This document shows, piece after piece, positions 29,959 through 51,048 of a stretch of DNA of 64,000 bases (positions are counted from its first letter, which is position 1; each line of letters begins with the position of its first letter). This DNA is from Haloplanus sp. XH21. Its GTDB lineage: Archaea; Halobacteriota; Halobacteria; Halobacteriales; Haloferacaceae. The stretch covers positions 1,116,001-1,180,000 of the forward strand of contig NZ_JALLPL010000001.1 in NCBI RefSeq assembly GCF_023276355.1, given 5' to 3'. The translations under genes were made by a program, and so were the position numbers. Under the pieces are notes generated by a model, which saw only the letters and a list, made by a program, of their open reading frames with translations, was not told the DNA's origin and did no database searches.

Positions 29959-31116
29959 TCAGGAGTTTCTGTTCGCGTACCATCGCCGGATTCGCTCGTC
30001 GATTCCCGACGGCAGGATTCTTGCGACGAAGTGATACCAGACACGTAGCGATTTACGCGGGATCAGCCCCTCTTGTACGTCGCGTTTAAGCGAGTCGATT
30101 GGCAGGGGAAGTACGACTAAATAGTAGATGTATCGCCGCCGAAACGCGCGCGATTGCCATATATCTTCGAGTGATCGTACATCCCCGTTTAGCGCGGCGT
30201 GTTTCAGCGGTGCAAGTGCGGTATCCTTCTGGAGGGTCGCCCACGCCGCGAGTTGCGCGGCAAAACGGGTTTCCACGCGCGTGAACAGGTCCTTGCTCTT
30301 CTGGTCGCGTAGTATTTCGTCGACTGCCTTCATTCGATACTGTTGCAACTGGACACGAAGTTCCAAATCGGACCAGTCGAAGTCGCTCCAGAAGCGGTGT
30401 TCTCCCTCGTATTGGTAATGGTCGACGAGACAGAGATGGCGGGATGAGAGAATCGCCCGACCATTGACCATCGCTTGAATCAGCAACACGTTGTGAATAT
30501 ACAGCGATCCGAAATATTCCTCCGCCGCTTCGAGGTCGATGGCCGAGCGTTCGAGGATGATTCCGCCGATGTAGTTCCGTCGCCACGTATGGTTGGCGAA
30601 CGGATGCGGAATACGGTTCACGAAGGCAGCGAGCGAATCGTAGCCGGTCTCACACTCCTGCATCAGCGGAACGGACTCGTCCCAGTCGTACTGCTCGTCG
30701 TCGACAGGTCCATATCCGGCGACGATACTGCTGAATTCGATGGTCGGATTCTCGATCAGGCTGAGTGCCCAACGAAGGTTCTCGCTGACGATTTTATCTT
30801 CATCTGCCAGCGGCATGAGATATCTCCCTCGAGCGAGCGTGAGACAGCGAAAGAGGTTCTTCTCATACCCGATATTCGTCTCGTTTTCGAAATAACGGAG
30901 CCGTTCGTCGTCGAAGTGGTCGATAGCTGCACGCGTGTCGTCATCCGATCCGTCGTCGCAGACGACGAGTTCTACACCGCCGTGGTCGAGTTCGAGGACG
31001 TGCCCGATGACTTTTGCCAGGCGCTCGGCGTTGTTGTACGTCGGAATACAGATGCTCAACGCGACGCCGTCTTGCTCCGTTGATTTCCGTGACGATTGAC
31101 TGCGTGTGGCTGTCAT
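29959..31116 (-). CDS. GT2-family glycosyltransferase
   Basis: 385 residues. The GT-A domain opens with VALSICIPTYNNAERLAKVI, followed by ELVVCDDGSDDDTRAAI and the acidic PLADEDKIV at the usual metal-binding position. No membrane helix is evident, so it is a peripheral enzyme acting at the inner face. The C-terminal 150 residues are helical and basic with no known motif. ATG at 31116 is preferred to an upstream in-frame GTG. It lies in the AT-richer middle of the island and probably adds one sugar of the glycan. Confidence 0.8.
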   Translation of the reverse strand: MTATRSQSSRKSTEQDGVALSICIPTYNNAERLAKVIGHVLELDHGGVELVVCDDGSDDDTRAAIDHFDDERLRYFENETNIGYEKNLFRCLTLARGRYLMPLADEDKIVSENLRWALSLIENPTIEFSSIVAGYGPVDDEQYDWDESVPLMQECETGYDSLAAFVNRIPHPFANHTWRRNYIGGIILERSAIDLEAAEEYFGSLYIHNVLLIQAMVNGRAILSSRHLCLVDHYQYEGEHRFWSDFDWSDLELRVQLQQYRMKAVDEILRDQKSKDLFTRVETRFAAQLAAWATLQKDTALAPLKHAALNGDVRSLEDIWQSRAFRRRYIYYLVVLPLPIDSLKRDVQEGLIPRKSLRVWYHFVARILPSGIDERIRRWYANRNS

Positions 31117-31321
31117 CGTGATAGTTAATCGCCGGAGAGACTCGACACGGTTGCTGTGACGGGTCTGCACCGACGAGATGTGAAGTATATCTCGGGGGTC
31201 GATTAAAAGTTCCTTTCGCCGGGCTGCGTGCTGTGGGATGGGACACCCCCAGAAAATAGCTACGACTATCAGATCACGCGAGTATCGTCTCCCAGAACCG
31301 CACGCAGATCGACGAAAGGAC

Positions 31322-31327
31322 TAAATC
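31322..31327 (+). promoter_or_regulatory. TATA-like box of the glycosyltransferase at 31.3 kb
   Basis: TAAATC 22-27 bases before the ATG at 31349. The spacing argues for the MSDGF start instead of the TTG 21 bases upstream. Confidence 0.45.
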
Positions 31328-31348
31328 TTGGTCAATAAAATCCGAACC

Positions 31349-32272
31349 ATGTCCGACGGATTCGATCTGCAAACTCCCGTCGCGCTTTTCGCTTATAACA
31401 GACCCGACTATACGCGGCGAGTGCTTGAACGGATCCGCGAGGCCGACCCTTCGTGTCTCCTGTTCGTGGCGGATGGTCCCAATCCAAACGACGAGACGGA
31501 TCGACGGCGCACCCAGGCCGTGCGCGACCTCGTTTTGGAGGATTCATTTTCGTTCGAAGTCAAATGTGAACTTGCGGACGAGAACATGGGCCTGAAGCGT
31601 CGTTTTTCGACCGGGTTAGACTGGGTGTTCGACCAAGTGCCGGAAGCGATTATTCTTGAGGATGATATCCTTCCCGAGATGGACTTCTTCCGGTACTGTC
31701 AACTCCTTCTGGATCGATTTCGTGACGACGACAGGGTTATGGAGATAACCGGCCGGAACCAGCTCGAACAGTGGCAGAGAGACGATTATGACTACCACTT
31801 CTCGTACTACGGCGGCATCTGGGGATGGGCGACGTGGCGGGATGCGTGGGACGAGTTCGATCCCGAAATGAGGTTGTGGGCCAACCCAACAGTTCGTGAC
31901 CGAATCCGCGACCTCGTCTCCGATCCTGAGCAGTTCCGGTATCTAGAGCGAGTGTATGACAGCACCGCTGCGGGTGAGACTGAAAGCTGGGCGTATGCGT
32001 GGGGATTCGCTCGCCACCTCAACAGCGGTCTCTCCGTCGTCCCGTCCCGAAATCTCGTAGATAATATCGGGTTCGGCGAGAAGTCGACGAATACACAGAA
32101 CGTGGGAAGCGGCTTCGTGGGAAAAGAGACGTTCAATTTGGACTTTCCCCTGAACCATCCGCCGTACGTCGCCGTTGATCAGGAATACGATGACCGGTTC
32201 CATCGATTGCGGCCCGCGAGATGGAAGGTTATGCCTGGGATGCATTATTTGACCGAAGCGCTCGGACTGTAG
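31349..32272 (+). CDS. GT2-like glycosyltransferase (HlpA-type)
   Basis: 307 residues. Features are PVALFAYNRPDYTRRVLERI at the start, LFVADGPNPNDETD, NMGLKRRFSTGLDWVF, EAIILEDDILPEMDFF as the acidic metal site, and FSYYGGIWGWATWRDAWDEFD. This set marks GT-A glycosyltransferases often annotated as GT2 or haemolytic-protein-like in polysaccharide clusters. The EDD site and the WGWATW loop are intact, so activity is expected. It is a single gene facing right between two leftward transferase genes. Donor and acceptor unknown. Confidence 0.75.
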   Translation: MSDGFDLQTPVALFAYNRPDYTRRVLERIREADPSCLLFVADGPNPNDETDRRRTQAVRDLVLEDSFSFEVKCELADENMGLKRRFSTGLDWVFDQVPEAIILEDDILPEMDFFRYCQLLLDRFRDDDRVMEITGRNQLEQWQRDDYDYHFSYYGGIWGWATWRDAWDEFDPEMRLWANPTVRDRIRDLVSDPEQFRYLERVYDSTAAGETESWAYAWGFARHLNSGLSVVPSRNLVDNIGFGEKSTNTQNVGSGFVGKETFNLDFPLNHPPYVAVDQEYDDRFHRLRPARWKVMPGMHYLTEALGL

Positions 32273-32305
32273 TGGTGTGGACCACAGAAAACGGAGTCGA
32301 CTCGA

Positions 32306-33562
32306 TCAGATAATCTGCTGCCGATAGAGATCGAGATACGCGCCGGCCACCTTCGATTGCTCGTAGCGCTCGACGGCGTGGTCCCGCGCAGTCGTCGACA
32401 TCCGAGTCCGGTCAGCTACGTCCAACACCCACTCAATTCCACTCGCCAGCCCGTCCGCCTCGTACGGCTCCGCCAACCACCCCGTCTCCCGATGATCGAC
32501 AATATCTTTCGGCCCCGTCGCGTCGAACGCCACCACGGGCGTCCCACACGCCAGCGCCTCTGACACCGTCTGCCCGAACCCCTCGTAGCGCGAGGGGACG
32601 ACCATCACGTCGGCCGCCGAGTAGAGCAAGACGAGACTCGGGTCGTCGTGGAGGTAGCCGACGTAATGTGTCGGGAAGCCGAAGTCTGGTGGGTCCTCCG
32701 GTTCGTTGGCACCGAAAACGACGAGTTCGACGTCCTCTAGCTCCCCCGAGAGCGACTGCAGCGCGTCCTGCAACAGGTCCGCGCCCTTCCGGTGGTCGCC
32801 CATCGGGTCGACGGCTCCGAACAATACCAGCCGTTTGTCCTCGGGCAGGTCGAAGAAGTCCCGGCCCAGTTCGGGGTCGCGGGGACGATAGGTGTCCGTA
32901 TCGAGGGCGTTCGGAATCACCTCGATACGTCGGTCTCCGAACAGCGAACTTCGGCGCGCCTGGTCGGCCAGCCACGTGCTCGGCGCGACGATGGTGAGAT
33001 CCAGGTCGTCCCAGTGGCGGTGTTTGCGGTGCCAGGTGAGTCTGGAGAGGTCGAACACCGAGTCGGAGCCGAGTTGCGGACACGACCCACAGCGCTCTTC
33101 GAAGCGGTCACAGCCATCGGCGTAGTGACACCCGCCGGTGAGCGCGGCCATGTCAGGCAAGCGCCAGACGACGGGACGGTCAAGCCGACCGATGGTCCGC
33201 ACCGAGAGCGTTCCGCGCCACACCCAGTTCAGATGGACCACATCGGGGTTCACTTCGCGTATGCGTTCGAGTTTCCGCTCCGGGAGCCAGTTGATGCCGA
33301 ACCCGCTCGACTGGCCGTAGAGACGGAGGGGGAGCATGTCGACGTGCGGTCGGGCGAGACTCCAGGCGCGACCGAGTGTCGATTCGGGACCGATAATCGT
33401 CGGGTCGTCAGTGGATTTCTCTTGGACGAGCATCCGAGAGTCGACGCCGATGCGGCGGAGACCGTGGTGGATGCGCTTGGTCGCCGTCGCCGACCCGCCG
33501 GTGTCCGACGCGTTGACGAGCAAGGGCTGAACGTCGGCGGCGCTGTCCGTCACGGCCGCCAC
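32306..33562 (-). CDS. GT4-family glycosyltransferase
   Basis: 418 residues from a GTG start; a second in-frame GTG three codons later is equally possible. The N-terminal GT-B half includes NASDTGGSATATKRIHHGL and NPDVVHLNWVWRG, and a four-cysteine patch CHYADGCDRFEERCGSC. The C-terminal half has NALDTDTYRP, LVLFGAVDPMGDHRKGADLL and the donor-binding EGFGQTVSEALACGTPVVAFDATGP. That E-x7-E pattern is the GT4 hallmark. The gene ends 34 bases from the converging neighbour. Confidence 0.85.
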   Translation of the reverse strand: MAAVTDSAADVQPLLVNASDTGGSATATKRIHHGLRRIGVDSRMLVQEKSTDDPTIIGPESTLGRAWSLARPHVDMLPLRLYGQSSGFGINWLPERKLERIREVNPDVVHLNWVWRGTLSVRTIGRLDRPVVWRLPDMAALTGGCHYADGCDRFEERCGSCPQLGSDSVFDLSRLTWHRKHRHWDDLDLTIVAPSTWLADQARRSSLFGDRRIEVIPNALDTDTYRPRDPELGRDFFDLPEDKRLVLFGAVDPMGDHRKGADLLQDALQSLSGELEDVELVVFGANEPEDPPDFGFPTHYVGYLHDDPSLVLLYSAADVMVVPSRYEGFGQTVSEALACGTPVVAFDATGPKDIVDHRETGWLAEPYEADGLASGIEWVLDVADRTRMSTTARDHAVERYEQSKVAGAYLDLYRQQII

Positions 33563-33865
33563 CTCGATCCGTCAGCCATCAGCGTCGGTGTCGGCGGATA
33601 CATCGGTTCGGGATGGACCGGGTGTGTGGAAAAACGTTCTCCCTCCGGATTCGCCTCTCCACCGGCACCAACATGACCAGTGGTTACACATCTACGTTCT
33701 TTGCCGCCTGAAGGCGGTCCTTTCCACGGATTGGCCCACAATGCCCCCGTCGACGACGTGCACGATTCGGACGAGGACGCACGTGTCGGAGTATCGCCGG
33801 AACGCTCCTCCACAGTTTCTCCCTGACAGTAAGAATATTGTATTCCTCGACGGTCGATCACCCGG
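33563..33865. other. gene-free 303-base gap with one small hairpin
   Basis: No supported frame. It contains a short stem-loop at 33703-33718 (GCCGCC, TGAA, GGCGGT) and an AT-rich run near 33830 (AAGAATATTGTATT). The gap separates two leftward genes, so it should hold the promoter of the GT4 gene at its left end; no clear TATA-like box is seen there. Confidence 0.4.
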
Positions 33866-34531
33866 TCAGATATCCAGACAGTTTTCGTCTCGATAGAGGA
33901 TGCCCGTGCAGGATTCGGTCAGTCGCTGTGCCTTCGGCCCGACAAACGGGAGTGCGCGGAACCCCGCGTCCCGAAAACGCGCCCAGTCACTGTCGTCCCA
34001 CCGTTCGAAGTCGTCGAGAATGACGACGCCGTGATCCGTTATCGCCTCTAGAGTTGGGCCCACGCAACTCTGCCGAACGCGGCCATCGATGACGACGATA
34101 TCGAACGATCCGTGGGCCGTCACTTCCGATGCGTAGTCATCGAGGTCCGGTTCATATACGACGGTTAAATTCGACGGGGAACGCTCTTGCATCGCCGTGG
34201 CCCACTCCTTCGAGTCTTCGACGGCGACTACCTCCTTGACGCGGTCGCTGTACCACAGCGAAGAGTGACCGCTCCCGAATTCGAACACGCGAAACTCGGT
34301 CCGGGTCCGAGGTTCGATGAAATCGATCGTGGGATACGTGTACCACGGAATCGGCTCTCCGTCTTGGTCAACGGGGGCACCGACCTCGTTGCTCCGCATC
34401 CAGCCCTTCGTTCGGAGATAACTGTTATCCGCGTAGTACCACCGTATCAGTGGGTGTGAGTCGAGAACGGACCGAATCGAGTCCTGAACGATATCAGGGA
34501 GAGAGTGATACACGCGCGTCGGATCTATCAT
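33866..34531 (-). CDS. class I SAM-dependent methyltransferase-like protein
   Basis: 221 residues. RVFEFGSGHSSLWYSDRV is motif I, EVVAVEDSKEW the motif II acidic end, and FDIVVIDGRVRQ and GVVILDDFERW later strands of the Rossmann-like fold. The N-terminal 70 residues may hold the acceptor. Methylated sugars occur in haloarchaeal N-glycans (for example methylated glucuronic acid by AglP in Haloferax volcanii), so glycan methylation is plausible, but this is not close to AglP by any motif I can point to. It lies 85 bases downstream of aglG on the same strand. Confidence 0.6.
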   Translation of the reverse strand: MIDPTRVYHSLPDIVQDSIRSVLDSHPLIRWYYADNSYLRTKGWMRSNEVGAPVDQDGEPIPWYTYPTIDFIEPRTRTEFRVFEFGSGHSSLWYSDRVKEVVAVEDSKEWATAMQERSPSNLTVVYEPDLDDYASEVTAHGSFDIVVIDGRVRQSCVGPTLEAITDHGVVILDDFERWDDSDWARFRDAGFRALPFVGPKAQRLTESCTGILYRDENCLDI

Positions 34532-34616
34532 CGGCTACGCTGACCATCTCGAGCACAGAATCTATATCCTTCGGCTTCGAGCGCCCCGCCTCCGATAACC
34601 ATAATATCGCCGTAGA

Positions 34617-35564
34617 CTACTCCACAACAGTCTCCACTTTCTCCAACAACCCCGGCGTCACCAACGCATACAGATACCCTAGCCCCACGGCCCCCGTAAA
34701 CACGAATATCGCCAGAATCTGCAACACCGCCGCCAGCGACGGCTTCGTCATAACACCTTTCGCCCGGCGCGGCACCCGGTCCAGAAACAGGAAGCGGAGA
34801 TAATCCGTCTCGTCGCCGTCCTCGTCGGGATACAGCAGGTCCATCACGCGCTTCGAGTATCCTTGCCAGAACGAGCGCGCGACGAGCCAGTCGAACTCGC
34901 CGCGGTAGTCGAACAGCTTGTGCTCCACCACCGCGTCGTCGGTGTAGATGACGCCTTGCCCGGTCAGGTCCTTGATTCGGATGCAGACGGGCGCCTCGTG
35001 GGCCTGGATGTGCTTGTCCCCGCGGCGCCCCGTATGCGTGTCGTAGCCGCCGGCCTCCAGAAACACGTCGCGTTTGAACGAGATGTTCGACCCGTAGGTG
35101 TTCCGCACTTCCTCGCCGTCCTCGGCGAACCCGGGTTCGACACAGCCGACGAGCCAGTAGAACTCCTCCGGGAAGAAATCGGGGCGGTCGGTCTGCCAGT
35201 CCGGTCGCACGTCGCCGCCGACGGCGACGGCGTCGGTGTCCTCGTACACCGCGACCAGATTTGCCACCCAGTCTTCGTGGGCAACGGCGTCGTCGTCGAG
35301 CATCGCCACCACGTCCCCGGAGGCGAGTTCCGCGCCCTTCGTGCGCGAGTAGGAGATGCCACGGTTCTCCTCGTTGTTGTGACAGACGACGCACTCGCGG
35401 TCACAGAAATCGTCCTGCACGCGCTCGTAGACGGCGCCGTTGCCGTCGACGACGAGGACGACCTCGACGGGGTCGTACGTCTGGGCGAGGACGCTTTCGA
35501 CGGCTTCGGTGAACGCGTCGTACCGTTCCATCGCGTACGTACAGACGACGACCGACACCTGCAT
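34617..35564 (-). CDS. aglG: AglG-type membrane-bound glycosyltransferase
   Basis: 315 residues. The GT2 domain starts VSVVVCTYAMERYDAFTEAV, with EVVLVVDGNG, AMLDDDAVAHEDWV (metal site) and GSNISFKRDVFLEAGGYD. A C-terminal membrane helix near 275-300 anchors it. In Haloferax volcanii AglG adds the second sugar, glucuronic acid, to dolichol-linked glucose, and lies beside aglB as here. Gene order and the single C-terminal helix support the name. Divergent promoters separate it from aglB. Confidence 0.82.
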   Translation of the reverse strand: MQVSVVVCTYAMERYDAFTEAVESVLAQTYDPVEVVLVVDGNGAVYERVQDDFCDRECVVCHNNEENRGISYSRTKGAELASGDVVAMLDDDAVAHEDWVANLVAVYEDTDAVAVGGDVRPDWQTDRPDFFPEEFYWLVGCVEPGFAEDGEEVRNTYGSNISFKRDVFLEAGGYDTHTGRRGDKHIQAHEAPVCIRIKDLTGQGVIYTDDAVVEHKLFDYRGEFDWLVARSFWQGYSKRVMDLLYPDEDGDETDYLRFLFLDRVPRRAKGVMTKPSLAAVLQILAIFVFTGAVGLGYLYALVTPGLLEKVETVVE

Positions 35565-35658: not shown

Positions 35659-35664
35659 TTTATG
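35659..35664 (+). promoter_or_regulatory. TATA-like box of aglB
   Basis: TTTATG 26-31 bases before the aglB ATG at 35690. It probably also drives the DUF368 gene six bases beyond aglB. Confidence 0.55.
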
Positions 35665-35689: not shown

Positions 35690-38600
35690 ATGAGCGACGA
35701 TCAGAGACAGGGGTCCTCGTCGGTCGCAGACCTCTTTTTCAACTGGTATCACGTCCCCGCGCTCGTCCTCGTCGTTGCGACGATGCTCGCTATCCGCCTG
35801 CAGGCGTATAGCAACTTCATCCGCGACGGGACAGTGTACTTCTCGGGGAATGACGCCTGGTATCACCTCCGTCAGGTCGAGTATACGGTGCGGCATTGGC
35901 CCTTCACGATGTCGTACGACCCGTGGACGAACTTCCCGTACGGCACGAACGCGGGGCAGTTCGGCACGCTGTACGACCAGCTGGTCGCCACCGCGGCGCT
36001 GGTCGTCGGCCTCGGCAGCCCGTCACAGGAACTCGTCGCGAAGACGCTGCTGGTCGCCCCGGCCGTGTTCGGCGCACTGATCGCCGTGCCGGTGTACGCC
36101 ATTGGCAAGCGGTTCGCCGGGCGCGCGGCCGGCCTCTTCGGGGCCATCGTCCTCCTGCTCCTCCCGGGGCAGTTCCTCCAGCGCGGCCTCGTCGGCTTCG
36201 CCGACCACAACATCGCCGAACCGCTCTTCCAGACCATCGCCGTGCTCGCGCTGATGATTGCCATCGCGGTCGCCGTCCGCGAGAAACCGATTTGGGAACT
36301 CGTCGTCGACCGCGATATGGACGCCCTCCGACAGCCACTCATCTGGAGCGCGCTCGCGGGCGTCGCGGTCGCCCTCTACATGTGGGTGTGGCCGCCGGGT
36401 GTCCTGCTCGTCGGCGTCTTTGGCGTCTACCTGGTCTACCAGCTTACGAGCGACTACGTTACTGGTGGCTCGCCTGAACCCATCGCGTTCGTCGGCGTCG
36501 TCTCGATGGTCGTGGCCGCGGTGCTGATGCTCGTGCAGTTCGACACGGTGTCGTTCGGCGCCACCGACTTCTCCCTCCTCCAGCCCGTCGTCGCGCTCGG
36601 CGTCGGCGTCGGCGCGGCCTTCCTCGCCGGGCTTGCACGCCTCTTCGACGACCGCGCGATCGATCGTACCTACTACCCGCCGGCGGTCGTCGGCCTCATC
36701 GCCCTCTCCCTCGGCCTCATCGCGGTCGCGCTCCCGTCACTGTTCGGGACGATCCAGTCCAACGCCCTCAGCTTCATCGGCTTCAGTGCCGGCGCCGGTC
36801 TTCGAACCATCTCCGAGGCGCAGCCGTATCTCTCACCCGACATCCTCCAGCAGAACCGCATGACTGCGACCGGGCGCATCATGGCCGACTACGGCTTCAC
36901 GCTCTTCACGGGCGTTGCGGCCGTCATCTGGCTGGTCGCGAAACCGCTGCTCCGTGACTGGGAGACCGAACGCGTCGGCTACGTGTTCGGCTCGCTCGCG
37001 ATCCTGGGACTGCTCTTCCTCGTTCCCGGCCCGTTCCAGGCTGTCGCCGACGCGATCGGTGTGGTCTCCGAACTCGTCGGCGTCGCGATCGTCGCGGCCA
37101 TCCTCTTTGGCGCCGTCATCCAGACCAACTACGACAGCGAGAAACTCCTCTTCGTCGTCTGGGCGGCGTTCATGACCTCTGCTGCGTTCACGCAGGTCCG
37201 GTTCCACTACTACCTGGCACCGATCGTCGCCATCGCGAACGCCTACCTCCTCGGGGAGATCCTGACGTATCTCGACTTGCGCGTCCCCTCCTTCGACGCG
37301 CTGCGCGACCTGCAGGGATACCAGGTGCTCGCGGTGCTCGCGGCCGCGATGCTGATCATCACGCCCGTGCTCCTCGTGCCGATAAACGTTCGCAACACGG
37401 GTAACGCCGACTTCGACCAGAGTAGCACCGCCTGGGAGACAGCACAGGGGACTGGCCCTGGTGCGGTGACGGAGTGGAACGACTCGCTCAACTGGATGGA
37501 GTCGAACACGCCCGCCCCTGGCACCTTCGGCGGTGCGAGTGAGGAAATGGAGTACTACGGCTCCTACGACCAACCGTCGGGGGGCGACTACGACTATCCG
37601 GCCGGCGCCTACGGCGTCCAATCCTGGTGGGACTACGGCCACTGGATCACCGTCCGCGGTGAGCGCATCCCGAACGCCAACCCGTTCCAGCAGGGGGCGA
37701 CCGACGCCGCGAACTTCCTGCTCGCGCCCAACGAGTCGGCCGCACAGAGCGCCCTCGGCGAGCGCGACACGGAGGCGGCGGGCACCCGGTACGTGATGGT
37801 CGACTGGCAGATGGTCAACCCGTCGTCGAAGTTCGGCGCTCCGGTCGTCTTCTACGACGCGTCGAACGTCTCCGCGTCGGACTTCTACAACCGCGTGTAC
37901 GCCAGCGACCTGCGCGGGAGCTTCCCCGTCCGCACCCAGCGCTACTACGAGAGCCAGATGGTGCGGCTGTACGCCTACCACGGGAGTTCGGCACAGCCCC
38001 AGCCGATCGTCGTCGACTGGGAACAACGGCGCGTCGAGACCCAGAGCGGCGAGACGATCACCGTCCGAGCGGGGCCGCAGGACCAACGAACGGTGCTCCG
38101 ACAGTTCGACAACATGTCCGCGGCGGAAGCCTACGTCGAAAACGACAGCACGTCACAGATCGGTGGCGTCGGCCACTATCCCAGCGAGCGTGTGCCAGCG
38201 CTCGAACACTACCGGCTGGTGCAGGTGAGCGAGTCGAACGCGTCCAGTTCCTCGCAGTACTCGCTCTCGGCCCGCCGCGCCTTCGCCATGACGGGCCTCC
38301 CGCCGTCGTCGCAGACGCTCTACGAGCCCTCGTGGGTGAAGTCCTTCGAGAAGGTGCCCGGCGCGACCATCACGAGCGACGGACTGCCGCCGAACACGTC
38401 GGTCCGCGCGTCGGTCCCGATGCGCGTTCCGGCGACCAACGAGACGTTCACGTACACCCAGCAGACGCGGACGAACGAGGACGGGGAGCTGACGATGACG
38501 CTTCCCTACTCGACGACGGGCTACGACGAGTACGGGCCGTCGAACGGCTACACGAACGTGAGCGTCCGGGCGACGGGCCCGTACACGCTCGAGTCGGCGC

Positions 38601-38896
38601 TCGCGAACGACAACGGCTCGCTCGTGCAGTATCGCTCCCAGGTGAACGTGAGCGAAGGTCGGGTCAACGGCGACATCGAGGGCACGCGGGAGGTGACACT
38701 GGAGCAACGCAACCCGCTCCAGAACCTGTCGCTCGGCGGCGGTAACGAGTCCGAATCGATCGACCCCGACGCGTCGATCACGGAGACGACCGCTGATTCC
38801 GCCGATGACACGTCGAGCACGCCCGACGGTGTGTCAGGAAGTACCGACACGCGGACGGCGTTCGACGCTCCCCGCGTCGCCGTCGCTCGGAACTAA
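35690..38896 (+). CDS. aglB: oligosaccharyltransferase AglB
   Basis: 1068 residues. About 13 membrane helices fill the first 570 residues, and a globular C-terminal domain faces outside. The catalytic acidic motif is GNDAWYHLRQV (residues 53-63), and the sequon-binding motif WWDYG is at 646-650 in GVQSWWDYGHWITVRGERIPNANPF. AglB moves the finished glycan from dolichol phosphate to Asn in N-X-S/T of exported proteins. Its length and layout are those of haloarchaeal AglB. It is the centre of the island and probably co-transcribed with the next gene. Confidence 0.97.
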   Translation: MSDDQRQGSSSVADLFFNWYHVPALVLVVATMLAIRLQAYSNFIRDGTVYFSGNDAWYHLRQVEYTVRHWPFTMSYDPWTNFPYGTNAGQFGTLYDQLVATAALVVGLGSPSQELVAKTLLVAPAVFGALIAVPVYAIGKRFAGRAAGLFGAIVLLLLPGQFLQRGLVGFADHNIAEPLFQTIAVLALMIAIAVAVREKPIWELVVDRDMDALRQPLIWSALAGVAVALYMWVWPPGVLLVGVFGVYLVYQLTSDYVTGGSPEPIAFVGVVSMVVAAVLMLVQFDTVSFGATDFSLLQPVVALGVGVGAAFLAGLARLFDDRAIDRTYYPPAVVGLIALSLGLIAVALPSLFGTIQSNALSFIGFSAGAGLRTISEAQPYLSPDILQQNRMTATGRIMADYGFTLFTGVAAVIWLVAKPLLRDWETERVGYVFGSLAILGLLFLVPGPFQAVADAIGVVSELVGVAIVAAILFGAVIQTNYDSEKLLFVVWAAFMTSAAFTQVRFHYYLAPIVAIANAYLLGEILTYLDLRVPSFDALRDLQGYQVLAVLAAAMLIITPVLLVPINVRNTGNADFDQSSTAWETAQGTGPGAVTEWNDSLNWMESNTPAPGTFGGASEEMEYYGSYDQPSGGDYDYPAGAYGVQSWWDYGHWITVRGERIPNANPFQQGATDAANFLLAPNESAAQSALGERDTEAAGTRYVMVDWQMVNPSSKFGAPVVFYDASNVSASDFYNRVYASDLRGSFPVRTQRYYESQMVRLYAYHGSSAQPQPIVVDWEQRRVETQSGETITVRAGPQDQRTVLRQFDNMSAAEAYVENDSTSQIGGVGHYPSERVPALEHYRLVQVSESNASSSSQYSLSARRAFAMTGLPPSSQTLYEPSWVKSFEKVPGATITSDGLPPNTSVRASVPMRVPATNETFTYTQQTRTNEDGELTMTLPYSTTGYDEYGPSNGYTNVSVRATGPYTLESALANDNGSLVQYRSQVNVSEGRVNGDIEGTREVTLEQRNPLQNLSLGGGNESESIDPDASITETTADSADDTSSTPDGVSGSTDTRTAFDAPRVAVARN

Positions 38897-38902
38897 CGCC
38901 GC

Positions 38903-39850
38903 ATGGAACGGCGCCTTCGCTCCCTGCTCGTCGTCGCTCTCAAGGGACTCTGTATGGGCGCCGCCGACGCCGTCCCCGGCGTCTCCGGCGGCACCATCGC
39001 GCTCATCACGGGGATCTACGAGCGCCTGATCGCAGCCATCACTGCGGTCTCGCCGGCGCGGATCGGCCGCGTTCTCGCTGCACCGCTGCCGGGCCGGCGC
39101 GCCGACGCGCGGGCGGCGTTTCTCGAGATCGACGGCTGGTTTCTGCTCGCGCTCGGTACCGGCATCCTCACCGCCGTCCTCGTCGTGACGCGGCTCCTCC
39201 ACGTCGCGCTCGCGGACTCCCCGGTCGTCACCTTCGGCTTTTTCTTCGGCCTGATCGCCGCCTCGGCCGTCGCGCTCGCGGACCAGGCGTCGCTCGATAC
39301 GCCCGGGCGGATCGGCGCCGGCATCGGCGGGTTCTGTCTCGCTTTCTTCGCGTCGAGTCGCGCCGGCGCAGCCCTCCCGTCGTCGCCGCTGGTCACCGTC
39401 TTCGTCGGCGCAATCGCCATCAGCGCGATGGTGTTGCCCGGCATCTCGGGGTCGCTCATCCTGGTCATCCTCGGTCAGTACGAGTTCCTCGTCGAACGGC
39501 TGACGGCCTTTGTCGACGCCCTCCTCGGTCTGTTCGTGGGCGGGACGGTCGACGCCGTCGTCGACCCCGCGACGACCGTCGTCGCCTTCGGCGTCGGGGG
39601 CGTGGTCGGCCTCCTCAGCGTCGCCCACGCCGTCCGCTGGGCGCTCGCCCACTACCACCGGGCGACGCTCACCTTTCTCGTCAGCCTGGTCGTCGGCGGC
39701 CTGCGCGCCCCCGTCGTCGAGGCCGGCGAGGGACTGACCGCCGGGTGGTCGACCGATCCGCTCCTCGCGTTCGCGGGGGCGGCAGCCGTCGGCGCCGTCG
39801 TCGTCCTCGCGCTCGAACGGTACACCGAGGGCATCGCGGAGCCGGTCTGA
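38903..39850 (+). CDS. DUF368 (PopT-like) polyprenyl-phosphate transporter candidate
   Basis: 315 residues with about nine hydrophobic segments. The DUF368 signature appears as GAADAVPGVSGGTIALITGIYE (residues about 19-40), with a related segment MVLPGISGSLILVILGQYE about 150 residues later, indicating two internal repeats. Bacterial DUF368 proteins were shown to return undecaprenyl phosphate to the inner leaflet. The ATG is six bases after the aglB stop, so it is almost certainly in the aglB transcript. By inference it recycles the dolichol phosphate that AglB releases outside. Confidence 0.82.
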   Translation: MERRLRSLLVVALKGLCMGAADAVPGVSGGTIALITGIYERLIAAITAVSPARIGRVLAAPLPGRRADARAAFLEIDGWFLLALGTGILTAVLVVTRLLHVALADSPVVTFGFFFGLIAASAVALADQASLDTPGRIGAGIGGFCLAFFASSRAGAALPSSPLVTVFVGAIAISAMVLPGISGSLILVILGQYEFLVERLTAFVDALLGLFVGGTVDAVVDPATTVVAFGVGGVVGLLSVAHAVRWALAHYHRATLTFLVSLVVGGLRAPVVEAGEGLTAGWSTDPLLAFAGAAAVGAVVVLALERYTEGIAEPV

Positions 39851-39855
39851 CCGTC

Positions 39856-39934
39856 ATACTGTCGGCTGTAAGTCGTTCAACGATTTCGCCACCCGGGGTG
39901 GTGAATATCTTGATCCAGTTACAGCCGGCAGTAT
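39856..39934. repeat. first large imperfect palindrome after the DUF368 gene
   Basis: The arms ATACTGTCGGCTGTAA (39856-39871) and TTACAGCCGGCAGTAT (39919-39934) are inverted copies with one mismatch. An inner pair, TTCGCCACCC and GGGTGGTGAA, continues the pairing with one mismatch. The transcript could fold into a long hairpin. It starts five bases after the DUF368 stop codon. It may end the aglB transcript or be an inserted miniature element. Confidence 0.8.
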
Positions 39935-39936
39935 TA

Positions 39937-40016
39937 TACGGTTTATTGTAAGTCAGTACCGGTGGTTCGCTGGATCGCCTCCGCGAACCACCGGTAAATA
40001 GTTACAATAATCCGTA
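39937..40016. repeat. second large palindrome, abutting the methyltransferase stop codon
   Basis: The outer arms TACGGTTTATTGTAA (39937-39951) and TTACAATAATCCGTA (40002-40016) pair with one mismatch. The inner arms TACCGGTGGTTCGC (39957-39970) and GCGAACCACCGGTA (39983-39996) are a perfect inverted copy around a 12-base loop. It lies two bases from the first palindrome and ends exactly at the stop codon of the gene to the right. A left-arm-like copy recurs at the end of the window, so this is a dispersed repeat. Confidence 0.85.
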
Positions 40017-40580
40017 TCAGCCGTCGAGACGCGCCACCGTCACGAACGTCTCCGGCCGGGTCTCGGCGCGGTCGATGGCGAACCCCGCCGCTCGCTGGAG
40101 GCCCACGGCGTCGTCGAGGCCGTACGTCTCCCCGCGCGGTGGACCGGCCTCGCCCGCACCCTCACGGTCCCAGTCGACGATGGCGAGTCGCCCGCCGGGC
40201 CGGAGCACGCGGGCCACCTCCTGCAGGGCGTCGGCGTTCCCGAACTCGTGGAAGGTGAACGTCGAGACGGCGGCGTCGAGTTCGCCCGTCGCGAAGGGGA
40301 GGTCGGCGGCGTCGGCCGCGACGAGCTCGACGTTCTCGGGGACGCCTTTCTCGCGGTAGTGGTCGTGCATCACGGTCTGGACGTCGACGGCGAACACCGT
40401 TCCGGCGTGGGGGGCGAGATCGTCGGTGTAAAACCCGGTGCCACTGCCGAGGTCGGCGAGCACCGCGTCCGACTGCGGTGCGACGAGGGCGTGGAGTTCC
40501 TCGCGCGAGCAGTGGCGATACCGGGCGGCTGCATCCTCGAGTTTCGCCGCCTGATCGCTGTCGAACGTGTGAAAGCCCAT
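40017..40580 (-). CDS. class I SAM-dependent methyltransferase
   Basis: 187 residues starting at ATG 40580 (MGFHTFDSDQAAKLEDAAARY). VLADLGSGTGFYTDDLAPHAG is motif I, VFAVDVQTVMHDHY the motif II end, ELVAADAADLPF motif III, and RVLRPGGRLAIVDWDREGAG the post-I strand. The pattern is that of the UbiE/Methyltransf_11 type. The target molecule is unknown, and there is no sign that it belongs to the glycan pathway. A longer upstream frame is rejected because it runs over the small HEWD-motif gene on the other strand. Confidence 0.8.
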   Translation of the reverse strand: MGFHTFDSDQAAKLEDAAARYRHCSREELHALVAPQSDAVLADLGSGTGFYTDDLAPHAGTVFAVDVQTVMHDHYREKGVPENVELVAADAADLPFATGELDAAVSTFTFHEFGNADALQEVARVLRPGGRLAIVDWDREGAGEAGPPRGETYGLDDAVGLQRAAGFAIDRAETRPETFVTVARLDG

Positions 40581-43537: not shown

Positions 43538-43586
43538 CCGCCGTACATCCGAATCCTCTTTGCCTCACAGTCTCACCGCGTAGGTG

Positions 43587-44900
43587 ATGAATATCGGTAT
43601 CGTCGGTAGCGGCTACGTCGGAACGACTGTCGCGGCCTGTCTCGCCGACTTCGGTCACGAAGTCATGACCGTCGATGTCGACGAGTCGACCGTCACGGCG
43701 CTGAACGAGGGCGAGGCGCCCGTCTCCGAACCCGACCTCGGCGGCCTCCTCGACCGGTACGCCGGATCGACACTGTGGGCGACGACCGACTACGACGATC
43801 TGGTCGATTTCGGCGCCGAGGTCGTCTTCCTCGCACTCCCCACGCCCGCGAACGAGGACGGCAGCATCGACACCACGTACGTCGAGGCCGGCGCCGAAGC
43901 GCTCGGCGAGGTGCTCGGCGATCTCGACGGCTATCCCACCGTCGTCGTCAAGAGTACGGTCACGCCCGGCACGACCGAGGACGTCGTCGGGCCGGCGCTC
44001 GAACGCACGTCGGGCTTGCGGGTCGCCGAGGACTTCGGCCTCGCGATGAATCCCGAGTTCCTGCGGGAGGGCAGCGCCGTCGCCGACTTCCAGAACCCGG
44101 ACAAACTCGTCTTCGGGACGAGCGACGACGGTGACCGCGCGCTCGACGCGCTGGAAGCGGTGTACGCGCCGATTCTGGACGCCCAGGACGTGCCCGTCGT
44201 CCGGACGGGCCTCCGCGAGGCGGAGCTGATCAAATACGCCAACAACGCCTTCCTCGCGGCGAAGGTCAGCCTCATCAACGACATCGGAAACATCTGCAAG
44301 GAGTTCGGCGTCGACGCCTACGAGGTGGCCGACGCCATCGGCCTCGACGACCGCATCAGCGAGCAGTTCCTCCGGAGCGGCGCCGGGTGGGGCGGCAGCT
44401 GCTTCCCGAAGGACGTCTCGGCCATCGTCGCCGCGGCCCGCGAGCAAGGGTACGACCCCGAACTCCTCCAGGCGGCCATCGACGTGAACGACCGCCAGCC
44501 CCAGCGCATGCTCGACCTGATGGACCAGCACGTCGATGTCGAGGGGGAGCGCGTGGCCGTCCTCGGCCTCGCGTTCAAGCCCCATACGGACGACGTGCGC
44601 AACTCGCGGGCGATCCCGATCGTCGAGGGCCTGCAGGAACGCGGTGCGGACATCATCGCCTACGATCCCAACCCCGCCGCCGCCGACAACATGCGCGAGC
44701 GGTTCCCCGACGTGGAGTATCTCGCCTCGCCCTCGCCGACGCTCTCGGGCGCGCACGCGGTCCTGATCGTCACCGACTGGCCCGAGTTTTCGGACCTCGA
44801 CCGTGAGTTCGACCTCATGTCCGAACGGGTCGTCATCGACGGCCGGCGCGTCGTCGACCGCCGCGAGGGCATCACTTACGAAGGGTTGACCTGGGAGTAA
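43587..44900 (+). CDS. aglM: UDP-glucose 6-dehydrogenase AglM
   Basis: 437 residues. [26 protein letters not shown] binds NAD, the catalytic Cys272 is in [31 protein letters not shown] is the dimer helix and [20 protein letters not shown] the UDP-binding region. It oxidises UDP-glucose twice to UDP-glucuronate, the donor used by AglG. A GTG one codon upstream is possible. It closes the glycosylation island; a mobile element lies immediately after the stop codon. Confidence 0.92.
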
Positions 44901-44905
44901 ACTAC

Positions 44906-44955
44906 CCCACCCTACTCGCTCACGGCTTCGCTGTTCGCTTCGTTGAGGGTGGGGC
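44906..44955 (-). ncRNA. TnpB right-end hairpin, probable 3' part of an omega RNA
   Basis: CCCCACCCT at 44906-44914 and AGGGTGGGG at 44947-44955 form a perfect nine-pair stem across the last codons and stop of tnpB. In IS200/IS605 elements the right end is transcribed as the guide (omega) RNA that partners TnpB, with the guide copied from flanking DNA. Here the guide would come from the aglM 3' end. The RNA itself is inferred from position and pairing only. Confidence 0.5.
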
Positions 44956-46189
44956 TTTCGCGTGGACTCCTGCTCTGGCCGGGATCTCCGGCAGGAGGGT
45001 CATACGCTCCGTTCGCGTTCAACGTCCCGCGATTCAAGCGCACGCCTACGGGTGCGCCTCCGCCGTCTCCAGTTTGGTTACGGCGGAGATACCGCAGTCC
45101 AATGTTCTTGGCGGCGTTGTAGTCCGCGTGGTTCTCGTAGCCGCATTTCAGGCACTCAAAGTCCTCGGCGTCGCGGTTGTCTGGATGCGTGAACCCACAG
45201 TGCGAGCAGCGACGTGACGTGTTCTCCGGATCCACCTGATCCACATCGATGCCGCGGAGTTCGGCCTTATATTCGACGTACTCGTATACCCGCTCGAAGG
45301 CCCACTTATGGCCCCACGACGCACCGGAAAGTCGGTCACGGATACCAGTCAACTTCTCAAAGGCGATGACCGTACAGCCAGTTTCGGCGGCTTCTTCGAT
45401 GATGCCGTTCGCAATCCGGTGGAGCATCAGTTTGAAGCGCCCCGTCTCTTTCCGACCGACCGACTGGATATTCTCGTGAGCGTGGTGCGATCCACACTGC
45501 TGGAGTGACGCCCGCCGCTTTTCGTACTCCCGTCGCCAGTGGTCGAACTCATGCCCACTCCAGAACGTCCCTGTCGAAGTGACAGCGAGTTGGTTCACGC
45601 CGAGGTCAACGCCGAGGACTGTGCTGTGCCCGGTCGTTGCCTGTTCCGGCGTGCCGGTCTCCATCTCCGTCTTTGTTCGGAGATGAAGGAACCACTCGCC
45701 GTCTCTGTAGTGGAGTTCTGCGCCTGTCACCTCGTAGTCGTCGTTGTCGAGATACCGGCTGTGAGGTGTATCGCGTTCGTTTTCGGGCAGGACGTACTCG
45801 ATCTCGATGCGCCCGTCAACGGTTGCCAGCGACACGTACTCGTCGTGGAAGGTCGCACACCGCTTGTCGTACACCACAGTCGGCGTCGAGAAGTGTGGTT
45901 TGCCAGCGTCCTCACCTTGCTTCCAGCGAGCGACGACGCCCTGTACGGCATCGGCGGCCTTGTTGCGAGCGTTCTGGACGAGGTTTGCGTGCAAACGCGT
46001 CTGTTCACGCACCTCATCGTAGGTTTCTGCCTGCAACTGGGCCTTGCTCGTGGTCTTGTATTCGCCCTGCCAGGCGTGGTCTACGACGTAGTTGGCGGCC
46101 CACAGAAACTCATCGACTGTCTCGCGGAGAAGTGCGGCGTCGTGACTGCCTACGTCGAGTTTGACTGGGACAGTGCGCCGCACCCCCAT
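44912..46189 (-). CDS. tnpB: TnpB, RNA-guided nuclease of an IS1341-type element
   Basis: 425 residues with an intact RuvC core: Asp195 in LGVDLGVNQ, Glu278 in IAFEKLTG and Asp356 in [11 protein letters not shown] zinc ribbon has Cys328/Cys331 (CSHCG) and Cys346/Cys349 (CLKCG). The N-terminal wedge region is present ([19 protein letters not shown]). TnpB cuts DNA under guidance of an RNA from the element's right end, and helps keep copies of the element. There is no frame break, so it may be active. The ATG has an AATAAA-like box about 30 bases upstream. Confidence 0.92.
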
Positions 46190-46467: not shown

Positions 46468-49400
46468 TTACGCCGTCTGTTCTGCGTCCAACTGCTCGAT
46501 ACCGATGGTGACGGCGACGCCTTCGACGTCCCACTCTTCGACTAAGTCGTCGGCGTCGGCGTCGAACGCCGCGGTTCGTGTCTCCTCGGCGATCAGGTCG
46601 CGGTGGCGGTCGACCAGGTCGGCCACCCGGTCGTCGTCGATGTCGATGCGCGTCCGGATGCGCTCGTCGACGTCCAGGTCGAGTCGCTTTCGCATCTCCT
46701 GGATCCGCCGGACCACGTCGCGGGCGTACCCCTCGGCCTCGATGTCGTCCGTGAGCGACGTGTCGACGTAGACGGTGCCGCTGGCGCTCTCGTCGCCACC
46801 GTCGATGTCGGCGTCGAACTCCGCGCTCGCGACGTTCTCGGGCGGTTCGGCGCGGAACGACACCATCTCCTCGGTGAGGTCGTACTGCTCGCCGTCGACC
46901 GTGACGGCGTAGGGCGTCTCGTCGCCGTCGGCGAGTTCGTCGCGGCGGCGCCCCTTGATGGCGGCCATGACCTCCTGGGCCTCGCCGCCGAAGGCGGGAC
47001 CGATGACGCCCATCTCGGGTTCGGCGCGTTCGACGAGTTCCTCGAAGGTGTCGGTCACCTCGACTACTCGGGTGTTCACTCGGGCGCCGAGCAGCGAATC
47101 GAGCGAGCGGACGGCGTCGGCGACGCGGTCGTGCTCCGTCTCGACGACGACGCGCGGGACGGGCCAGCGGAGTTTGCGGCCGCCCTGCTGACGGGCGTTC
47201 GCCGCCGCCTCCTCGACGGCCCGGAGGACCGTCATCTCGGTTTCGAGCGCCGGGTCCCGCCACGCCTCGTCGACCGCCGGGTGGGCGAGTTGGTGGACCG
47301 TCGTCGCGTCGCCGTCGAGATGCTGGTACATCTCCTCGGCGAGGTAGGGCGTGACCGGTGCGAGCAGGCGTACCGTTTCATCGAGCACCGTCGCGAGCGT
47401 CGCGTAGGCGCCGAGCTTCGACGCGGAGTCCTCCGCCTCCCACATGCGCTCGCGGATGGCCTTGACGTAGAACCGCGAGACATCATCGGTGACGAACTCC
47501 AGGACGGCGTTCAGCGCGTCGTGGACGGCGTAGTCGTCCCACGCCTCGTTCACCTCGGCTTTGACCGACTGCAGGCGCGAGAGCACCCACTCGTCGACGA
47601 CGGTCAGTTCCCCGTCGTCCAGGCTCGCGTCGGCGGGGTCGTAGTCGTCGAGATGCATGTACTGCAGCGGGAACCGGAAGACGTTCCAGAAGATGTTGAG
47701 CGTCGACTGCATCTCGCCGAGGCCCTCCCACTCGAAGGAGAGGTCAACGCCGTGCTGGTCGTGCGAGAGGAGGTAGGCGCGAAGCGGGTCGCGGCCGAAG
47801 CGGTCGATGGCCTCCTCGGGCGTGACGATGTTGCCCCGCGATTTCGACATCTTTCGGCCCTCGCTGTCGTTGACGAAGCCGTGCATCACGACTTCGTCGT
47901 AGGGAATCTCGCCGAGGGCGGCCGTTCCCATCCCGAGCTGCGACCAGAACCAGCCGCGGGTCTGGTCGTGGGCCTCGACGATGAGATCCGCGGGCCAGAG
48001 GTCGTCGAACCGCGACTCGTCGCTGGGGTAGTCGAGGGTGCCCCAGGTCGCCACCGAGGAGTCGATCCAGACGTCGAACACGTCCGGCACGCGCTCGTAA
48101 GTGGTGCCGTCCTCCGTGATAGTGAGGGGGTCGACGCTCGGCCGGTGGAGGTCGACCGACTCGGGGTCGATGTCCTGGTCGGCGCGCTCCGCGAGTTCCT
48201 CCCGCGTGCCGACGACGAGGATGTCCTCGGCGCTCGGGTCGGGGTCGTCCTCGGGCACCCAGACGGGGAGCGGAATCCCCCAGTAGCGCTGCCGGGAGAC
48301 GTTCCAGTCCGGCGCGTCTTCGACGAAGTTCCGGAAGCGACTGTCCCGCGCCCACTGGGGGTGCCACTCGCTGTCGTCGATGTTGTCCAGCAGGTCGTCT
48401 TTGACGTCGGTGACGGTGATGAACCACTGATCCGTGGCGAGATAGATGATGTCGGTGTCGCACCGCCAGCACTGGCCGTAGCGATGGGAGTGAGTCCCCG
48501 ACGCCAGGAGACGGCCCTTCGCGTCCAGGTCGTCGATGATGTCGCCGTTGGCGTCGCGGACGAACTGGCCCGCGTACTCGCCGGCCTCGTCGGTGAAGGT
48601 GCCGTCGCCGGACACTGGCGAGAAGACGTCGAGGCCGAGTTCCTGGCCGCGCTCGAAGTCCTCCTGGCCGTGGCCGGGCGCGGAGTGGACGAGACCCGTC
48701 CGGTCGGCCTCCACATAGTCCGCCGCGTACACCTGGCCGATGCCCTCGCCGGCGGCGTGGTCGGGGACCTCTTCGGCGAGGGGGTTGTCGTACTCCCAGC
48801 CCACGAGTTCCTCGCCTGCGTACTCCGCGACGACCTCGTAGTCGTCGTAGCGCCCCTCGCGCAGGACGTCCTCGACGCAGGGTTCGGCGATGTAGAGTCG
48901 CTCCGTCTCGCCGCCTTTCGTCGCGTCGACGGCCTGATACGTCATCTCGGAGTCGACAGCGACGAACTCGTTTGCGGGGATGGTCCACGGCGTCGTCGTC
49001 CAGATGACGAGTGACCCCTCGCGGTCCTGCAGAGGGAACTTGACGTAGATCGACGGTGACTCGATTTCGTGGTACTCCACCTCGTTGTCGGCGATGGCCG
49101 TCTCACACCGCGGACACTGGTTGACCGCGCGTTTGCCCCGCTCGACGAGGCCGTTCCCGTGGACCTGTTTGAACGCCCACCACGTCGCCTCCATGTACTC
49201 CGGCGAGACGGTGCGGTAGGGGTCGTCCCAGTCCATCCACGCGCCGATGGACTGGAAGTCCTCGTCCATCTTCTCGCGATTGCGCTCCGCGAATGACTTG
49301 CACTCCTCGATGAAGGCCTCCATCCCGTACTCCTCGATGTCCTTCTTGGAGTCGAAGCCGAGTTCCTCCTCGACTTTCACCTCGATGGGCAGACCGTGCA

Positions 49401-49656
49401 TGTCGTAGCCCGGGCGGTCGGTGACGTCGTAGCCCTCCATCCGCTTGTAGCGAATGATGGCGTCTTTCAGCGTCTTGTTCCAGGCCGTCCCGAGGTGCAT
49501 CTGCCCGCTCGTGTACGGCGGCCCGTCGACGAAAAAGAAGGAGGGGTCGTCGGCGTGGGCCTCCTTCGTGGCCGCGTACGCGTCGTGTTCGTCCCAGTAC
49601 GCGTTCACCGAGGACTCGACGTCCTCGGGCGTGTACTGGTCACTGATCTCGTCCAT
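46468..49656 (-). CDS. ileS: isoleucyl-tRNA synthetase
   Basis: 1062 residues, the archaeal length. The class I HIGH motif appears as PPYTSGQMHLGTAWNK near residue 50, KMSKS as GRKMSKSRGNIV near 605, and the editing domain around LVIWTTTPWTIPANEF. A zinc-type CPRCETAIADNE and a CWRCDTDI pair are present. It charges tRNA-Ile. The ATG at 49656 (MDEISDQYTPEDVESSVNAYW) matches the usual start; the much longer open frame reaching 50508 is chance. Confidence 0.96.
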   Translation of the reverse strand: MDEISDQYTPEDVESSVNAYWDEHDAYAATKEAHADDPSFFFVDGPPYTSGQMHLGTAWNKTLKDAIIRYKRMEGYDVTDRPGYDMHGLPIEVKVEEELGFDSKKDIEEYGMEAFIEECKSFAERNREKMDEDFQSIGAWMDWDDPYRTVSPEYMEATWWAFKQVHGNGLVERGKRAVNQCPRCETAIADNEVEYHEIESPSIYVKFPLQDREGSLVIWTTTPWTIPANEFVAVDSEMTYQAVDATKGGETERLYIAEPCVEDVLREGRYDDYEVVAEYAGEELVGWEYDNPLAEEVPDHAAGEGIGQVYAADYVEADRTGLVHSAPGHGQEDFERGQELGLDVFSPVSGDGTFTDEAGEYAGQFVRDANGDIIDDLDAKGRLLASGTHSHRYGQCWRCDTDIIYLATDQWFITVTDVKDDLLDNIDDSEWHPQWARDSRFRNFVEDAPDWNVSRQRYWGIPLPVWVPEDDPDPSAEDILVVGTREELAERADQDIDPESVDLHRPSVDPLTITEDGTTYERVPDVFDVWIDSSVATWGTLDYPSDESRFDDLWPADLIVEAHDQTRGWFWSQLGMGTAALGEIPYDEVVMHGFVNDSEGRKMSKSRGNIVTPEEAIDRFGRDPLRAYLLSHDQHGVDLSFEWEGLGEMQSTLNIFWNVFRFPLQYMHLDDYDPADASLDDGELTVVDEWVLSRLQSVKAEVNEAWDDYAVHDALNAVLEFVTDDVSRFYVKAIRERMWEAEDSASKLGAYATLATVLDETVRLLAPVTPYLAEEMYQHLDGDATTVHQLAHPAVDEAWRDPALETEMTVLRAVEEAAANARQQGGRKLRWPVPRVVVETEHDRVADAVRSLDSLLGARVNTRVVEVTDTFEELVERAEPEMGVIGPAFGGEAQEVMAAIKGRRRDELADGDETPYAVTVDGEQYDLTEEMVSFRAEPPENVASAEFDADIDGGDESASGTVYVDTSLTDDIEAEGYARDVVRRIQEMRKRLDLDVDERIRTRIDIDDDRVADLVDRHRDLIAEETRTAAFDADADDLVEEWDVEGVAVTIGIEQLDAEQTA

Positions 49657-49756
49657 ACCCGACCCTATCCCCGTGCGTATATCAAAACGGTGATCGCGGG
49701 TGATCGGATGCGGCGAAACCAAAGCGTTCAGGTGGTGGTCCCGTCCACCTCTCGCC

Positions 49757-51048
49757 GTGTCCACTCGGTCCCGTCTCCGACTGACGTTCGCCCTCGCCGT
49801 CCTGGTGCTCCTTCTCCTGTCGACGGGATCGACACTCGCGTACGATCCGGTCGACGACGGCTCGCTCGGCCCCGGCACCGTTGACGCCGAACCGTCGAAC
49901 GCGACGGTCGTCAGCACGCAAGGCGTCCACTTCGCCGGGCAGTTCGACCGCTCTCGACCGCCACGACTCCTCTCCATCGCTCCCGACGGCGACCTGCGGT
50001 GGCAGTACGAGGGGCCCACGGTGCCGCCGGCTGGTTCTACGACGTGGATCCGCTGCCCAACGGCAACCTGCTCGTGGTGAGTCCCCGCGCGGGAGAGACG
50101 CTGGTCTGCGAACTCGACCGCGAGACGCGGGAGCGCGTCTGGACCGAGCGTCTGCCCTTTACCGATACGCACGATGTCGACCGCCTCGACGACGGCCGTC
50201 TCGTCGTCGCACACATGCGCGCGGATGTCGAGAACGGCACCAGCGGCGATCGGGTCGTCGTCTGGAACCGGTCGGAGAGCGCCGTCACCTGGGAGTGGCG
50301 GTTCGCGGACCACTTCCCGCACGACACCGCCGGTGGCGCCGACAGCGCGGACTGGACTCACGTCAACGACGTCGACCCTGTGGGTGACGATCGCCTGCTC
50401 GTCTCGCCGCGGAACTTCGATCAGGTGTTGCTCATCAACCGCACGACCGACGACATCGAGATGCGCCTCGGGAGCGACGGCGAGACGGAAACCCTTCACG
50501 CCCAACACAACCCCGACTTCCTGCGGGGCGCTGACGGCACGCCGACGATGCTCGTCGCCGACAGCGAGAACGACCGCGTGGTGGAGTACGCCCGGGAGAA
50601 CGGATCCTGGAACCGGACCTGGACGCTCACGGGCAACCTCACGTGGCCCCGTGACGCCGACCGCCTACCAAACGGAAACACGCTCGTCGTCGACAGCCTC
50701 GGCCACCGCGTGATCGAGGTGACGCCGACGGGTCGCGTCGTCTGGGAGTATTACGCGACGTGGGCACCTACACCGTCCGCGGCGGTGCGGGCGACTCGCC
50801 GGCCGCCAGTCGGGCGGGCCCCGGCGCCTGGCTGGAGCGGGTGACGGCCGGGGACGCCCGTCGCCGACGCGGGGCAGTCCACTGCGGGCTGGTGGGCCCA
50901 CCGCGCGCCCTGGTACCGTCCGGTGTGGCTGTCGCCGTGGGGGTTCCTTGCGGCCCTGATCGCCGTCGGCGTCGGCGGCGCGTGGCTGGCGTGTGAGGCC
51001 GCCTGGCGCCGGGGCGGGCCGCTCCGCCGATTCGTTCGCGACCGCTAG
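49757..51048 (+). pseudogene. arylsulfotransferase (ASST)-like membrane protein gene with three frame breaks
   Basis: A GTG at 49757 opens a protein with an N-terminal membrane anchor (LRLTFALAVLVLLLLSTG). At about 50030 the frame shifts, and GWFYDVDPLPNGNLLVVSPR begins the next frame. That frame carries the family body (HDVDRLDDGRLVVAHMRAD, DWTHVNDVDPVGDDRLLVSPR, MLVADSENDRVVEYARENG) to about 50757. Then a shift (GTYTVRGGAGD, WLERVTAG) and, at a run of four Gs near 50850, a shift back give WYRPVWLSPWGFLAALIAVG and a stop at 51046. About 20-30 residues are also missing at the second break. The gene is probably inactive. Confidence 0.75.

Follow-up and report, generated by a model that had tools for sequence, protein, structure and literature searches.

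In most sampled Halobacteria, the gene for the oligosaccharyltransferase AglB is coupled to a gene for a DUF368 membrane protein, and it is this conserved coupling that is new here, a member of the family having already been sampled in Haloferax volcanii. We encountered the pair in a stretch of 64,000 nucleotides from Haloplanus sp. XH21 (the window), and we think it probable that it is an operon in which AglB releases dolichol phosphate and a DUF368 protein of the PopT type carries it back to the membrane's inner leaflet. Every N-glycosylation system with a polyprenyl carrier must return the empty carrier, and we found no paper naming the archaeal protein that does so in a literature search that was short on subscription journals and did not extend to bioRxiv. 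The features of the pair are as follows.

35659-35664, + strand: TATA-like TTTATG, candidate promoter of the aglB-DUF368 pair, read from the sequence only
35690-38896, + strand: aglB, archaeal oligosaccharyltransferase (STT3 family), 1068 aa; TIGR04154, PF02516, PF22627, PF18079, WWDYG
38897-38902, + strand: aglB-DUF368 junction CGCCGC, 6 bp, operon-type spacing; from the sequence and the gaps in 46 linked loci
38903-39850, + strand: DUF368 (PF04018) membrane protein, 315 aa, proposed dolichol-phosphate translocase; PF04018, NF052564, AlphaFold2
38975-38992, + strand: first signature motif PGVSGG, residues 25-30; conservation, helix break in the model
39434-39451, + strand: second signature motif LPGISG, residues 178-183, equivalent of PGVSGG in the other internal repeat; conservation, helix break in the model

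The aglB product has the two marks by which we recognized AglB, a TIGR04154 match above the cut-off (931.6 bits, cut-off 450) and a WWDYG motif (residue 646), and PF02516, PF22627, and PF18079 all score above their Pfam cut-offs. The DUF368 protein passes the gathering score of PF04018 (210.9 bits, cut-off 26), its sole Pfam match across 315 aa, in a family that Pfam currently names 'VCA0040-like, undecaprenyl phosphate translocase-like'. It misses the equivalog cut-off of the NCBIfam VCA0040-type and PopT-type models (400 bits), with 183.2 (NF052564) and 83.8 bits, and by these profile matches it is a member of the PF04018 family outside the curated NCBIfam equivalogs. The gene is single-copy in this genome; among named relatives Haloplanus ruber is the closest, with 76% identity in the DUF368 protein.

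Two signature motifs are among the most conserved stretches of the protein and are identical in archaeal and bacterial DUF368 copies. In the first, PGVSGG, P25, G26, S28, and G29 are invariant in one alignment and residues 25-30 are all invariant in another; in the second, LPGISG, L178, P179, G180, S182, and G183 are invariant, and both P-G-V/I-S-G motifs are conserved in alignments of 20 and 46 rows. The motifs belong to an internal repeat, in which residues 7-118 align to 161-263 (E 1.9e-8 from one pairwise test, uncorrected for composition). An AlphaFold2 model built with 46 sequences (mean pLDDT 91.4, pTM 0.84) predicts the multi-helix membrane fold expected of DUF368/PopT proteins, with 15 helices. 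PGVSGG sits at the break between predicted helices 2-23 and 29-35 and LPGISG at the break between predicted helices 162-177 and 183-189, helix boundaries that we read as re-entrant-like hairpins at both motifs. No solved structure resembling the protein was found by sequence search or by a PDB fold search at E <= 0.001.

The earlier note on this DNA had proposed looking at aglB neighborhoods in other Halobacteria, and the neighborhood proves to be conserved. We drew 292 Halobacteria genomes evenly from the class, located AglB and DUF368, and compared their coordinates, counting DUF368 as directly downstream when it lay on the same strand with less than 1 kb between model ends; contig breaks can only reduce the linked count, never raise it. 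DUF368 is present in 289 of the 292 genomes. Both genes were located in 286, and in 203 of these the two are linked on one strand, DUF368 lying directly downstream of aglB in 191 and 1.8-2.7 kb downstream in 12, while in 83 it is far from aglB or on another contig. The linkage extends to 54 of 77 genera and 9 of 11 families, with other neighbors varying, and named examples include Haloplanus, Haloquadratum, Haloferax, Haladaptatus, Halonotius, Halosegnis, and Halegenticoccus. With the pair on one strand in so many genomes, a chance neighborhood of aglB and DUF368 is ruled out, and the class-wide co-directional adjacency is of the kind that we take as the mark of an operon. AglB and DUF368 are both absent from two genomes, both fragmented assemblies, and one genome that is 98% complete (G021) has AglB and lacks DUF368.

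The spacing of the two genes points the same way. DUF368 does begin six bases after the aglB stop, as the earlier note had stated, and this gap (38897-38902) leaves no space for a separate DUF368 promoter outside the aglB coding sequence; the TTTATG hexamer lies about 28 bp before the aglB start codon. In our own gene calls, which used a codon-usage score trained on these loci, or length at low G+C, with one representative per genus and linkage status, aglB comes immediately before DUF368 in 46 loci and is co-directional with it in all 46. The gap is 14 bp or less in 23 of the 46 and the genes abut or overlap (gap of 0 or less) in 12, with start codons that are themselves estimates. This spacing suggests that aglB and DUF368 form a single transcript from one promoter. 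General conservation of synteny does not explain the pairing, since the next commonest gene pairs in the same 18-kb stretches reach only 17 loci against 46.

The wider surroundings place the pair in a glycosylation region: several glycosyltransferase genes of GT2 and GT4 types, together with a weak methyltransferase match, lie upstream of aglB (window 29959-35564), and a UDP-glucose dehydrogenase gene (AglM-like) lies downstream of the pair (window 43584-44900). In several Haloferax species and at some other loci, a UDP-glucose dehydrogenase gene stands between aglB and DUF368.

The unlinked copies bear on the history of the arrangement. In a tree of 111 DUF368 proteins, whose root is not fixed, linked copies occur in nine families and across deep branches. 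Of 26 unlinked representatives, 20 belong to a single clade with support 100/99, which is nested close to the family that the window comes from; the remaining ones are scattered. Because most unlinked copies form one clade, the linkage looks ancestral, and the tree fits a scenario in which aglB and DUF368 were a pair from the start and a single unlinked lineage was afterwards transferred into other families. At one locus (L351, genome G116), a DUF368 remnant comprising the C-terminal third is left about 240 bp downstream of aglB (51% identity across 78 columns, E 1e-13), and the intact DUF368 of the same genome belongs to the unlinked clade. A search for decayed linked copies behind aglB found no more in the set's other 19 genomes, nor in another 20 genomes; with one clear remnant, decay in place of a linked DUF368 alongside an unlinked one is anecdotal. 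Inspection by eye of the region downstream of aglB in unlinked genomes found nothing recurring, and so no recurrent DedA gene in the place of DUF368. At six loci of one family (L236, L240, L242, L243, L247, and L250), the unlinked DUF368 lies beside a convergent GT2 glycosyltransferase gene and a methyltransferase gene.

DUF368 is widespread in bacteria. DUF368 and DedA proteins have been proposed as C55-P translocases (Sit et al. 2022, PMC9876793), the DUF368 members including V. cholerae VCA0040 and S. aureus SAOUHSC_00846, proposed undecaprenyl-phosphate translocases, and C55-P accumulates at the surface of bacterial DUF368 mutants (PMC9876793). The window protein shares their Pfam family and signature motifs but scores below the NCBIfam equivalog cut-offs, has dolichol phosphate as its presumed carrier, and is encoded by a gene tied to aglB instead of the peptidoglycan pathway. 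The same study found that the H. volcanii DUF368 protein HVO_RS12060 partly complements a V. cholerae vca0040 mutant, pointed out the enrichment of DUF368 in Halobacteria, and mentioned dolichol phosphate in general terms (PMC9876793), so the idea of an archaeal recycler is not wholly new; AglB is not mentioned there. The H. volcanii aglB is HVO_RS12050 (PMC5131992, PMC7749143), with aglF, aglI, and aglG at RS12035 to RS12045 (reported in one of these two papers). As the locus tags run in steps of five, we infer from them and from congeners that HVO_RS12060 lies two genes from aglB, a distance that fits the gene order of other Haloferax: in Haloferax denitrificans and Haloferax marinum, aglB and DUF368 are separated by an opposite-strand UDP-glucose dehydrogenase gene. 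HVO_RS12060 and the window protein belong to the same family and class, but in the window DUF368 directly adjoins aglB (6 bp) instead of lying two locus tags away. Our search, with the same limits on subscription journals and bioRxiv, found no paper joining the HVO_RS12060 complementation with the position of aglB.

These observations lead us to a model in which the aglB-DUF368 operon would provide the last two carrier-cycle steps of haloarchaeal N-glycosylation. AglB would transfer the glycan from its dolichol-phosphate carrier to asparagine at the outer face, with dolichol phosphate remaining in the outer leaflet. When the carrier is a monophosphate, transfer itself yields dolichol phosphate, so its return would need no prior phosphatase step. 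DUF368, as a PopT-family transporter built of two internal repeats, with P-G-V/I-S-G lying on a broken, re-entrant-like helix in each, would then return dolichol phosphate to the inner leaflet for reuse; it would probably act on dolichol phosphate left by any reaction at the outer face, and DedA proteins would be a partial backup. Haloferax glycans are indeed carried on dolichol phosphate (PMC3871713). The earlier note had put DUF368 forward as a dolichol-phosphate recycler from its family and its place behind aglB; both of these grounds hold, and the published vca0040 complementation supports a PopT-like activity, whereas the substrate, the inward direction, and the energy source of transport are only what we infer. 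DUF368 is thus a candidate recycler with good comparative support, an idea in part foreshadowed in the literature. It is quite doubtful that AglB and DUF368 go further and form a physical unit in haloarchaea, with the released dolichol phosphate handed directly to the transporter; if they do, the unit would be an oligosaccharyltransferase with a built-in carrier recycler. Together with the published complementation in H. volcanii, the pair makes the recycling question testable in a tractable organism, and it is relevant to the ways in which other systems might recycle dolichol phosphate.

The tie to AglB may be looser than this model assumes. DUF368 could be a general polyprenyl-phosphate recycler for all dolichol-phosphate pathways, including those for mannose-charged carrier and exopolysaccharide, with aglB linked to it as the largest user and with DedA making it dispensable. 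We consider this unlikely, yet it has several points in its favor: the genome of the window has four DedA/VTT genes, all away from the aglB-DUF368 pair, and seven other haloarchaea that we checked have 2-5 each; 83 of 286 genomes have DUF368 and aglB apart; in one family the unlinked copies are next to the GT2 glycosyltransferase and methyltransferase genes; and in bacteria there is conditional overlap between DUF368 and DedA (PMC9876793). With four DedA proteins encoded alongside DUF368 in one genome, redundancy is likely. However, the exceptional retention of the aglB pairing speaks for some preference, and at least one DUF368 is kept in all but three of the sampled haloarchaea even though DedA is present in all seven checked. 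In bacteria, DedA/UptA proteins (PF09335) are likewise proposed inward transporters of the carrier (PMC9876793, PMC12826051), but theirs is an unrelated Pfam family, and the window DUF368 protein has no match to PF09335.

Adjacency to aglB would suit a supplier of substrate equally well, and DUF368 could instead work outward, flipping glycan-charged dolichol phosphate to AglB; a review of Haloferax names no flippase for the tetrasaccharide substrate of AglB, AglR and Agl15 being proposed for other carriers (PMC3871713). This direction is highly improbable given that it is empty carrier that accumulates at the surface of bacterial DUF368 mutants, which the H. volcanii homolog complements in part (PMC9876793), and given a small protein (315 aa) with PF04018 alone and no Wzx- or Rft1-type match. 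AglR and Agl15, proposed dolichol-phosphate-sugar flippases of H. volcanii, are membrane proteins of the same carrier cycle as DUF368, but they would move charged carrier outward (PMC3871713) where we propose that DUF368 moves empty carrier inward. It would also be very surprising, to the point that we give it scarcely any credence, if DUF368 were an accessory or stability factor of AglB, or a carrier of another lipid, with its bacterial-type activity incidental. Operon partners are often subunits or chaperones, and the partial complementation in Vibrio is not a transport assay, Sit et al. themselves leaving transport-independent roles possible (PMC9876793); but DUF368 and AglB are apart in many genomes and DUF368 is common in bacteria, so it is not dependent on AglB, and archaeal copies share their signature motifs with bacterial ones.

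Only 54 of 312 sampled Halobacteriota outside the class Halobacteria have DUF368, against 289 of 292 within it, and with about 83% lacking it, AglB is not generally in need of DUF368 and the carrier-return step must be done otherwise there. A DedA-like match was present in 15 of 19 non-Halobacteria Halobacteriota genomes without DUF368 that we checked. In five genomes of one Methanosarcinaceae-like family (L269-L273), about 13-16 kb separate DUF368 from a same-strand STT3 gene. We rejected this proximity as linkage outside the class: the intervening genes, thermosome-like genes included, are unlike a glycosylation cluster, and the gene beside DUF368 is, as read by eye, a uracil phosphoribosyltransferase gene.

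Other features of the window lie downstream of the pair. Directly 3' of DUF368 are two tandem palindromic elements of about 81 bp each (window 39856-40017), with inverted-repeat arms of 39 nt and 35 nt; the family has 64 match rows in the window's own genome, and the elements therefore look MITE-like. Window 44912-46189 on the - strand holds an IS605-group gene of TnpB/OrfB type, whose product has a Cas12f1-like TNB domain. It is followed by an isoleucine--tRNA ligase ORF of 1346 aa (window 46468-50508, - strand) in which the ligase model begins only at residue 290; its start may have been set too far upstream, or the protein may have an extra N-terminal region.
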